Source: Candidatus Mediterraneibacter merdipullorum (lineage in GTDB: Bacteria; Bacillota; Clostridia; Lachnospirales; Lachnospiraceae). Taken from it: a stretch of 64,000 nt of DNA. Location of the stretch: positions 1 through 64,000 of the forward strand of contig DXAL01000023.1 of NCBI GenBank assembly GCA_019117125.1, written 5' to 3'. Within the stretch, counting starts at the first letter, position 1, and every line of letters starts with the position of its first letter. The position numbers were made by a program, and so were the translations under genes. Below are positions 7,798-11,165 of this stretch, one piece after another. The notes under the pieces were generated by a model. It was not told where the DNA came from. It made no database searches and worked only from the letters and a program-made list of their open reading frames with translations.

Positions 7798-9060
7798 ATG
7801 ATGACGAATCGTGTACATAGAGTCATTTTGCGGAAAGCAGGGAGCAAGTGTGTCTCCCTGTTTCTGTTTGTCCTGATGCTGTCCCTGCTGCTTCTGCCGG
7901 CTGTCCCTGCGACCGCTGAATCTGCTGTTTCGATGAAGCCTTCCGCACTTTATGCCCGCTGCGCGGTGCTCATGGACGGGGATACAGGACGGGTCCTCTT
8001 CTCCAAAAACGGGGAGGAGCAGGCGCCTATGGCCAGCACCACAAAGATACTGACCTGCATCATCGCCCTGGAGAACGGCAGTCTGTCTGATACGGTGGAA
8101 GTAAGTGAAGAGGCGGCTTCCCAGCCAAAAGTGAGGCTCGGGATGAAAGAAGGGCAGCGCTTTTCCCTGAAAGACCTGCTCTATTCCCTGATGCTGGAAT
8201 CTCACAATGACGCGGCGGTGGCGGTGGCGGAACACATCGGCGGCAGCGTCCCCGGATTCGCGGACATGATGAACCGGAAGGCAAAAGAGATTGGCGCAGA
8301 TTCCAGTTACTTCATCACGCCCAACGGGCTGGACGCGGAAGATGAGAACGGCGTCCATCACACGACGGCGAAAGACCTGGCGCTCATCCTGCGCTACTGC
8401 ATCATGGAATCCGGGATGCGGGATGAATTCCTGGAGATTACGCGGACGCCGTCGTACACCTTTTCGGACTGCAGCAAAGAGCGGGAGTACGCGTGCACCA
8501 ACCGCAATGCCTTCCTGAAGATGATGGACGGCGCCCTTACGGGAAAGACGGGATTTACCGCGGACGCCGGATACTGCTATGTGGGCGCGCTGAAAAGCGA
8601 TGACGGGCGGACCTTCATCGTCGCCCTCCTTGCCTGCGGATGGCCCGGGAACAAGAACTATAAATGGTCGGATACGAGGAAGCTCATGACCTACGGGCTG
8701 GAGCATTACACCTACCGGGATGTGGCGCCGGAAGAAGACTGCGGCAGCATCCGGGTCATCGGAGGATATGCGGGCGGATTCCCGGACAAGGGAGGGGTGG
8801 AAGTACCGGTCCGCTCCGGAGGAACTCCGGGCAGGATTCTCGCAGGTGCAGATGAAGAAGTGACGAAAAGGACGGAACTGCCCGCATCCCTCAGTGCGCC
8901 GGTGGAAGAGGGGGACCAGGTCGGGCGCATCGAGTATGCCGTGGACGGTATGGTGATGAAAGTATATCCGGTCTGTACAGCCGGGAGTGTGCAGGAGCGG
9001 ACGGCGGATATCTGCCGTTCCTGGATAGTCCGGAAGTATTTCCTGCAGAAGGGAGATTAA
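7798..9060 (+). CDS. D-alanyl-D-alanine carboxypeptidase (PBP5/DacF family), copy 2
   Basis: A 420-residue S11-family penicillin-binding protein. An N-terminal basic region and long hydrophobic stretch (about residues 19-40, ending ATAE) form the signal peptide. Motifs: STTK with Ser80 and Lys83, SHNDAAV as the second motif, and TGKTGFT as the KTG box, then a C-terminal beta domain. It removes terminal D-Ala from stem peptides outside the membrane. ATG codons occur at 7798 and 7801 after a GGAAAGAGGA site. It is paralogous to the gene at 3343; scpAB next to a dacF-type gene is a common order in clostridia. Confidence 0.92.
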   Translation: MMTNRVHRVILRKAGSKCVSLFLFVLMLSLLLLPAVPATAESAVSMKPSALYARCAVLMDGDTGRVLFSKNGEEQAPMASTTKILTCIIALENGSLSDTVEVSEEAASQPKVRLGMKEGQRFSLKDLLYSLMLESHNDAAVAVAEHIGGSVPGFADMMNRKAKEIGADSSYFITPNGLDAEDENGVHHTTAKDLALILRYCIMESGMRDEFLEITRTPSYTFSDCSKEREYACTNRNAFLKMMDGALTGKTGFTADAGYCYVGALKSDDGRTFIVALLACGWPGNKNYKWSDTRKLMTYGLEHYTYRDVAPEEDCGSIRVIGGYAGGFPDKGGVEVPVRSGGTPGRILAGADEEVTKRTELPASLSAPVEEGDQVGRIEYAVDGMVMKVYPVCTAGSVQERTADICRSWIVRKYFLQKGD

Positions 9061-9085
9061 AATATATCAATATAAATGATTAAAT

Positions 9086-9116
9086 TTGCCACTGGTGCAG
9101 CGCATTTCTGTATGAT
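9086..9116 (+). promoter_or_regulatory. Candidate leuA promoter with overlapping palindrome
   Basis: TTGCCA (9086-9091) and TATGAT (9111-9116) are 19 bases apart; TATAAG at 9119-9124 is an alternative -10. The imperfect palindrome GCCACTGGTGC overlaps the -35 box. The spacer (9061-9176) is far too short for a T-box. Confidence 0.4.
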
Positions 9117-9176
9117 AGTATAAGTGAGGATAAAATATAACAACCAAATTGATTAATTATAAGGAGAGTTACACAT

Positions 9177-11165
9177 ATGGAGAATTGGAAGAAATACAGA
9201 AAGACTTATTTTATGCCGCCTGAGCCGTGCTATGACTGGGTGAAGAAGGACGCCATCGAGAAGGCGCCCATCTGGTGCAGCGTTGACCTCAGGGATGGCA
9301 ATCAGGCGCTCATCGAGCCCATGAGCCTGGATGAAAAGCTCGAGTTCTTCCAGCTTCTTGTGGATGTGGGATTTAAAGTCATTGAGGTCGGATTCCCGGC
9401 AGCGTCCGAGACAGAGTATCAGTTCCTCCGGACGCTCATCGAGCAGAATATGATACCGGACGATGTGACCATCCAGGTGCTCACCCAGGCGAGAGAGCAC
9501 ATCATCCGGCGGACATTCGAGGCGGTAAAGGGAGCGCCCCATGCCATCGTGCACCTGTACAATTCCACCTCCGTGGCGCAGAGGGAACAGGTCTTCCGGA
9601 AGAATAAGGAAGAGATACTCGAGATTGCGGTGGAGGGCGCGAAACTCCTCAAGAAGCTCTCAAAAGAAACATCCGGGAACTTCACCTTTGAATACAGTCC
9701 GGAGAGCTTCCACGGAACGGAAGTGGACTATGCGCTGGAAGTGTGCAATGCGGTCCTCGACGTCTGGAAGCCCACAAAGAAGAATAAAGCCATCATCAAT
9801 CTCCCGACAACGGTGGAGAATTCCATGCCCCATGTATTTGCGAGCCAGGTGGAGTATTTCCATAAGCATCTCCGGGAGCGGGATACGGTGTTCCTTTCCC
9901 TGCATCCCCACAACGACAGGGGCTCCGGAGTCAGCGACGCGGAGCTGGGCGTGCTGGCGGGAGCAGACCGCATCGAAGGGACTCTGTTCGGCAACGGGGA
10001 GCGCACGGGAAATGTGGATGTGGTGACCCTTGCGATGAATCTGTTCTCCCAGGGCGTTGACCCGGAACTGGATTTCTCCAACATGAATGATATCATTGAA
10101 GTCTACGAGCGGGTGACGAGGATGAAAGTATCCCCGCGCCAGCCCTATGCAGGGGAACTGGTCTTTACGGCATTTTCCGGTTCCCACCAGGATGCCATCG
10201 CCAAAGGAATGGCGTGGAGGGAAGAGCACGATTCGGACATCTGGACTGTGCCCTATCTGCCCATCGACCCGCAGGATGTGGGCAGGAGATACGACTCCGA
10301 CGTCATCCGCATCAACAGCCAGTCCGGAAAAGGCGGCGTAAACTACATCCTCAAACAGAGCTTCGGCATCAGCCTGCCGGAGAAGATGCGGGAGGAAGTG
10401 GGATATCTGGTCAAAGATGTGTCGGATAAAGCCCACAAAGAACTGACGCCGGACAATGTATACCGGATTTTCGAGGATCACTATATCAATGCAAAGCAGG
10501 TGTTCACTCTGGACGAGTGCCACTTCAAGCAGGAGGACGGCATCATAGCCGAGGCGGTCATCCACCACAACAACAGCAGCCGCAAGATTATGGGAGTTGG
10601 AAACGGACGCCTGGATGCTGTCAGCAACGCCATCAAACATTATTTTGACATCAGCTATGAACTCGCGTTTTACGAGGAACACTCCCTGACCCGGGGTTCA
10701 TCTTCGCGGGCAGTCGCCTATGTGGGCGTCAACTGCAACCGGAAGCGCTACTGGGGCGTCGGCATCGACGCGGATATCATCAAGGCGTCTATCGAGGCGC
10801 TGGTCGTGGCGGTCAACAAGATACGGGAAATCTCCGAGTCCCAGGCGGGAAAAGACGAGCGGCTCCTTGAAATCACGAACTATATCTATGCGAATTACAA
10901 GAGCGTGACACTGGATGACCTGGCAGAGAAATTCTACCTGTCCAAGCCCTATCTCTCCAAGTATATCAAGGAGAAATCCGGCATGACGTTCGGGGATATC
11001 CTGAAAAAGATACGGATGAAAAAAGCCCGCGCCATGCTCAAGGGCAGCACCGCCACGGTAGAGAATATCGCAGAATCCGTCGGATATCAGAATGTGGAGC
11101 ATTTCAACAGGGTGTTCAAAAAGATGTACAACATCACTCCGATACAGTATCGGAACCGGAAATAA
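9177..11165 (+). CDS. leuA: 2-isopropylmalate synthase fused to a C-terminal AraC-type HTH domain
   Basis: A 662-residue uninterrupted protein. Residues 1 to about 390 are the TIM-barrel catalytic domain of type-2 LeuA ([17 protein letters not shown] near residue 33, [16 protein letters not shown] with metal-binding histidines, [15 protein letters not shown]). Residues about 440-555 resemble the leucine-binding LeuA dimer domain. Residues about 560-661 are a complete AraC/XylS DNA-binding domain with two helix-turn-helices, one around [20 protein letters not shown] and the second ending in the family signature [19 protein letters not shown] then ITPIQYR. The enzyme condenses acetyl-CoA and 2-oxoisovalerate in leucine synthesis. 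The extra domain suggests a leucine-responsive autoregulator, which is inference. No leuBCD is adjacent. Confidence 0.95.

Follow-up and report, generated by a model that had tools for sequence, protein, structure and literature searches.

Ada, a DNA methyltransferase fused to an AraC-type domain, activates its own promoter, but it responds to damage by irreversible self-methylation and not by allosteric sensing of an end product. Regulators of the AraC/XylS family such as AraC, MarA and SoxS comprise a complete two-HTH domain. The protein described here shares this domain, whereas its sensing and dimerisation part is replaced by a whole biosynthetic enzyme. Of the proteins BirA, NadR and PutA, none is known to catalyse the committed step of amino-acid synthesis or to contain an AraC domain. 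These three are described as enzymes with a second role as DNA-binding regulators (PMC8249747, PMC6978683). The 2-isopropylmalate synthase (LeuA) of Mycobacterium tuberculosis (1SR9, 3FIG) shows the same barrel, linker domain and leucine-binding C-terminal dimer domain as the present protein; the alignment of both stops before the AraC part and, unlike the fusion, the M. tuberculosis enzyme is without a DNA-binding domain. For Clostridia, T-box control of branched-chain amino acid synthesis has been described (PMC2494555). In contrast to the T-box, in which an RNA senses tRNA charging, the system considered here would use a protein operator.

In the present study, a 64,000-nucleotide stretch of the genome of Candidatus Mediterraneibacter merdipullorum (referred to as the window) was analysed, in which leuA is fused to an AraC-type domain. 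Among the matches listed in the literature searched, no title or beginning of an abstract described a LeuA-AraC fusion. Altogether, we consider it likely that the fusion is an autoregulatory, bifunctional 2-isopropylmalate synthase which binds its own dyad operator, is tuned by leucine and has largely replaced the T-box.

Architecture and distribution of the fused gene

The leuA-araC fusion gene (9177..11165, + strand) consists of one open reading frame of 662 codons with an ATG start, encoding 662 amino acids. Pfam profiles above their curated cut-offs place, on the same strand, the catalytic TIM-barrel (HMGL-like) at residues 31-307 (9267..10097), the IPMS_D2 linker domain at residues 327-393 (10155..10355) and the LeuA_dimer leucine-regulatory domain at residues 422-549 (10440..10823). 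These are followed by a variable linker with a high dN between the LeuA and the AraC part (residues 550-560, 10824..10856, + strand) and by the AraC/XylS two-HTH DNA-binding domain (residues 561-662, 10857..11162, + strand), which was delimited by Pfam, alignment and an AF2 model. HTH_18 (PF12833) matches residues 582-661 over its complete profile (positions 1-80 of 80) with 76.1 bits compared to a cut-off of 33.6, and the NCBIfam model NF002991 for 2-isopropylmalate synthase matches residues 5-548 (profile positions 3-550 of 550) with 815 bits compared to a cut-off of 455. The description in the initial annotation of an uninterrupted 662-codon frame joining a full type-2 LeuA to a full AraC/XylS domain is thus borne out by the reading frame, Pfam and NCBIfam. 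Both its score and the residues kept assign the protein to the type-2 2-isopropylmalate synthases, and it unites an enzyme and a DNA-binding domain within a single chain, as is characteristic of a trigger enzyme.

No second LeuA of comparable strength was found in the genome, which comprises 2.31 Mb on 55 contigs and is 94% complete; one other place matches part of the barrel with 31.6 bits. Judged by the translations, the genes upstream of the fusion include scpA, scpB and that of a D-alanyl-D-alanine carboxypeptidase, an aminopeptidase-P-like gene follows downstream, and leuCD lie on a separate contig (C25) behind argH- and asd-like genes.

In an alignment of 59 fused proteins, R39, D40, E176, H243, H245, N279 and H337 were invariant (positions counted by hand). 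R39, D40, E176, H243 and H245 align with R80, D81, E218, H285 and H287 of the M. tuberculosis LeuA, and the residues aligned with H379 and Y410 of that enzyme, the latter being Y360 of the fusion, were invariant as well. We take the seven residues named first to be the catalytic and metal-binding ones of the fusion. The same invariance was observed for G475, G477 and L479 of the GNGxL loop, which align with G531, G533 and L535. According to PMC10464499, the exchange Y410F in the M. tuberculosis LeuA abolishes leucine sensitivity, and in PMC11057210 the leucine pockets of the regulatory domain are placed at its dimer interface.

The AF2 model of the fusion (mean pLDDT 82.9, pTM 0.64) comprises seven helices from residue 561 to 660, with pLDDT values of 81-90 for ten-residue blocks. 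Due to the pTM of 0.64 and an rmsd of 16-21 for the full-chain fit to the M. tuberculosis crystal structures, the placement of the domains in this model is unreliable. The 50 matches listed of a fold search were LeuA and other barrel enzymes and are uninformative on the AraC part.

Full-length matches to the fusion without stops were present in at least 89 of the 397 family genomes (own genome included), in named isolates as well as in metagenome assemblies, and, among the matches listed, 363 of the 397 (own genome included) showed a LeuA with an E value of 1e-60 or lower. The fusion is cut by a contig end in G163 and split in G061. The locus sample, consisting of the best 80 of 92 confirmed stretches, spans Mediterraneibacter, Ruminococcus torques, Schaedlerella, Muricomes, Butyrivibrio and others; it is biased to fusions, since one of the six seed peptides sits in the AraC part. 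All its loci were full length except for L109 (contig end), L089 (frameshift) and L099 (stop codon). The frameshift in L089 lies at a G run near the junction and the stop in L099 is a single in-frame TAG in the barrel; both are possibly assembly errors. In a class-wide sample of 391 genomes, 13 matches over the fusion were found among those listed, including the own one. Three of these lie outside the family of the window (G471 and G607 of family f14, G609 of family f73). The operator treated below accompanies the fusion in the three out-of-family loci (L253-L255), which suggests either joint transfer or an earlier origin. In addition to the fused LeuA, G022, G108, G471 and G607 possess an unfused one with about 51-52% identity to the query.

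Operator-like sites in front of leuA

The upstream regions of fused leuA have a 33-bp element in common, with the outline TTAAAATAnATCAAnnnAAnTGATTAAaTTT. The element is a dyad, as its position weight matrix (PWM) agrees with the reverse complement at a single shift, with a mean column r of 0.70 compared to 0.56 for the next best. Such a dyad would suit the binding of a dimer. AraC, by comparison, uses a direct-repeat operator. The window contains two exact copies 73 bp apart, while none occurred in 100 shuffles of the window. Candidate site 1 (9055..9087, core 9058-9083, + strand), located by pattern and PWM upstream of the promoter, overlaps the last codons of the upstream gene, which ends at 9060. 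Candidate site 2 (9128..9160, core 9131-9156, + strand) overlaps the presumed transcription start.

An extended -10 element of the form TGnTAnnnT, TGATAGTAT (9113..9121, + strand), lies at a fixed offset from site 1, and a ribosome-binding site AAGGAG (9161..9166, + strand) was recognised by its sequence. In 120 of 123 loci, TGnTAnnnT starts at one and the same distance from site 1, as would be expected of a contact between an activator and the polymerase. With TAnnAT taken as the -10 element, site 1 comes to lie at about -73 to -41, a geometry like that of AraC, which acts at I1-I2 plus a second distant site. A sigma-70-like hexamer pair was absent in 9000-9200, but since shuffles contain 1.0 on average, this absence alone means little.

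Among the 127 loci with a site, 95 showed two, 31 one and a single locus three. The spacing in the 96 loci with at least two sites was 73 bp (54 loci), 63 bp (17), 74 bp (16), 76 bp (4), 75 bp (2) and 72, 70 and 106 bp (one each). Accordingly, 87 of the 96 show 63 or 73-74 bp; 63 and 73.5 bp correspond to six and seven turns of 10.5 bp. Since related loci are not independent, these site and spacing counts do not constitute a statistical test. In L022, L023, L033 and L037, site 1 overlaps by eye an intrinsic-terminator-like sequence (AAGGAAAGTGATTAAA..TCACTTTCCTTTTTT), and operator and terminator would therefore share bases in that sub-clade.

The occurrence of the operator differs between fused and unfused leuA. 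Of 133 non-redundant fused loci, 125 gave a PWM score above 18 and two more gave 14.8 and 16.8 (127/133 in total), compared to 0 of 25 unfused leuA loci with an operator (highest score 7.0). The six fused loci without a site above 12 are L034, which has only 47 bp upstream, L092, L097, L108, L145 and L156; judged by eye, L145 is degenerate and L092, L097, L108 and L156 are variants with changed spacing or bases. Among 20 further short-leuA loci, 19 scored at most 7.5, and L266, where the AraC part lies in another frame, scored 23.8. Since this first PWM was trained on the loci scored, a held-out PWM derived from 48 close relatives served as a check. It ranked 69 of 75 fused loci (<80% identity, two split loci included) above all controls, comprising 375 first-order Markov-resampled sequences and 44 unfused loci (highest 10.2). 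The six failures were L092, L097, L108, L145, L156 and L159.

Away from leuA, the pattern hardly occurs beyond chance. In the own genome, the two exact sites at leuA are accompanied by two other matches with 3 mismatches each, compared to 1 for the control. Within 23 fused genomes, the pattern was found up to 1 kb upstream of leuA in 21 (G322 and G207 without a match), and elsewhere 21 matches, all with 2-3 mismatches, compare to 20 for a reversed-pattern control. As the number of matches away from leuA thus equals that of the control, leuA seems to be the only target. The unfused G153, which lies outside these counts, showed no pattern match and one control match. Among 24 genomes taken as unfused, the sole match placed at leuA belongs to G061, where a different frame directly after leuA encodes the AraC part; a further genome taken as unfused, G028, showed one 3-mismatch match, with the position of leuA not among the matches listed. 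The PWM gave no site above a score of 5 in LeuC-like regions, one from each of nine genomes, and no operator above chance near the eleven T-box matches that the own genome contains. The leuB and ilv promoters were part of the genome-wide pattern search alone. The initial annotation had expected a regulon of leuA, leuCD, leuB and ilv genes. This expectation is not supported, with the operator confined to leuA beyond chance, and a shared leu/ilv operator was dropped, as nothing above chance appeared genome-wide, in the LeuC-like regions or in the T-box regions; a looser operator elsewhere is conceivable.

T-box occurrence and phylogeny of leuA

At the gathering score of Rfam RF00230, a T-box precedes leuA in 32 of 44 unfused, compared to 6 of 40 fused distinct loci. 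The unfused loci comprise subsets with 17/19 (L122 and L124 without T-box; split L138 left out), 13/19 (split L266, itself without a T-box, left out) and 2/6 (L207 being the same gene as L139). A regular expression for the T-box disagrees with Rfam at some loci (e.g. L268); the Rfam counts are used throughout. Fused leuA with a T-box are L142, L143, L144, L147, L161 and L193, while the match in L156 stays below the gathering score. In all six, site 1 precedes the T-box and site 2 is missing.

Within the window, no Rfam family reaches the gathering score. The earlier remark that the spacer in front of leuA leaves no room for a T-box therefore holds, and of the eleven T-box matches in the own genome none lies on the contig of leuA (C52). 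The more general proposal of a trigger enzyme with transcriptional control in place of the T-box is well supported: the operator tracks the fused domain and T-boxes are far rarer in front of fused leuA, but since six fused loci keep a T-box downstream of the operator, the replacement is incomplete. A strict exclusion of fusion and T-box is rejected by the same six loci. A plausible path would lead from operator plus T-box to operators alone. In the unfused loci L133 and L264, a match to the Clostridiales-1 sRNA was observed between the T-box of leuA and leuA.

In a tree of LeuA domains, 65 fused rows fell into one set with the unfused L122, L123, L124, L131 and L133 (support 95). With 20 more rows, the unfused L122, L123, L124, L264, L267, L268 and L270 were located inside a set of 72 (support 87), and L131 and L133 just outside of it (support 83). 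Both trees leave out L089, L099, L109, L154, L155 and near-duplicates. All nine of these nested or neighbouring unfused loci are without the operator. L123, L131, L133 and L264 show a T-box, whereas L122, L124, L267, L268 and L270 have none at the gathering score, so that losing the domain need not entail T-box control.

The AU test rejected a clade formed by the fused rows alone, with no losses (p 0.03). The split locus L266 was placed among unfused rows in the free tree with weak support. Grouping it with the fused and nested rows was not rejected (AU p 0.77), and placing it with the fused rows raises the likelihood. One origin of the fusion followed by several losses would be the simplest reading, with root and direction provisional. 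In an underpowered comparison of independent pairs, of which three lie on starred branches, the operator went the same way in, on average, 2.9 and 2.6 of the 3 and never the opposite way (median p 0.25).

Proposed mechanism and alternative explanations

Many gut bacteria have a DNA-binding domain on this first enzyme of leucine synthesis. Since the sites precede the gene of the enzyme and seem confined to it, the enzyme probably controls its own production. The fusion dimer would make isopropylmalate, and its C-terminal AraC domain would bind the conserved operator-like dyad of site 1 directly upstream of its own promoter. As this promoter combines an extended -10 element with the lack of an evident -35 consensus, binding at site 1 would recruit RNA polymerase. 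Site 2 over the transcription start would allow the same protein to repress, either alone or by bridging both sites; this arrangement would apply to many lineages including that of the window, mostly at a distance of six or seven helical turns. By occupying the regulatory domain of LeuA beside the linker, leucine probably tips the balance from activation towards repression, and for such a switch of DNA binding by leucine the conserved leucine-regulatory region is the evidence. The sole clear target would be leuA itself, with T-box control largely taken over in the fused clade and the operator layered on the T-box in some lineages.

We slightly favour an even more specific reading, in which the committed enzyme of leucine synthesis acts as the leucine-sensing AraC-type factor of its own gene through a two-site, helically phased activator-repressor arrangement, which would have originated once in Clostridia and acted first alongside the T-box before replacing it in most of the lineages sampled. 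If true, this would be a clear and widespread case of control by an RNA, the T-box, being overtaken by a regulator built into an enzyme, with possible intermediates (operator together with T-box, a single operator, two operators, loss of the domain) still present in living genomes. It would offer a model for enzymes acquiring DNA-binding functions, in the form of a gut-bacterial system of one gene and one operator that links enzyme allostery to transcription and is open to direct experiment.

Different explanations can be given for parts of these observations. The fusion could bind its own operator as an autogenous activator or homeostat that senses the amount of enzyme instead of leucine, which we consider rather unlikely. 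Such sensing would agree with the single site in 31 of the 127 loci and with the linker between LeuA and AraC part, which is the least conserved of four regions compared, so that a tight allosteric coupling is not assured. In 951 pairs with 86-98.5% identity among 78 genes of exactly 662 codons, median dN rose from 0.033 in the AraC part (566-662) through 0.045 in the barrel and 0.060 in the leucine domain to 0.167 in the linker (550-565). Due to the saturation of dS, only the order of these values is used and their ratios are rough. Sensing of leucine is in turn favoured by the complete leucine-regulatory domain with its invariant key positions and by the usual control in relatives, the T-box, which is itself a sensor of amino-acid supply. 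The same dN order bears on the idea that the AraC domain is a passive passenger or a mere stabiliser of the enzyme. Although several relatives possess a LeuA lacking this domain, its median dN is below that of the barrel, the helix QNVEHFNR of its second HTH is conserved, and it co-occurs with the operator, also in the held-out PWM test. A passenger was therefore rejected and is given very little probability.

It is also improbable that the operator, although real, is bound by a separate regulator of the AraC family, with the LeuA-fused domain contacting, for example, that regulator or RNA polymerase. Candidates would be at hand, as 15 further places in the genome match the AraC part. A separate regulator is nonetheless hard to reconcile with the absence of the operator from the nine unfused loci that lie within or next to the fused set, with the joint occurrence of fusion and operator in three loci of other families, and with the operator being kept in two loci with the AraC part just downstream in another frame. 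Furthermore, one target per genome beyond chance is as expected of a dedicated autoregulator. The initial annotation had pointed to a sequencing error joining two adjacent genes as a threat to its interpretation. A few related records show a frameshift at or near the junction (L089, L138, L266), but because at least 89 of the 397 family genomes match the whole fusion without stops, such an artefact, whether of sequencing or of assembly, is refuted, with a negligible probability left to it.

Two split loci deserve description in their own right, both of which have kept the operator. In G061 (L138 / L155), leuA ends with TAA TGA; the AraC part comes next, in a different frame that has its own ATG codons. 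As the operator is kept, enzyme and regulator may therefore be separate proteins in this genome. In L266 (G078), leuA ends at a TAG soon after a run of eight A, and the AraC part continues in another frame, which could result from an assembly error, a real split or slippage giving both forms.
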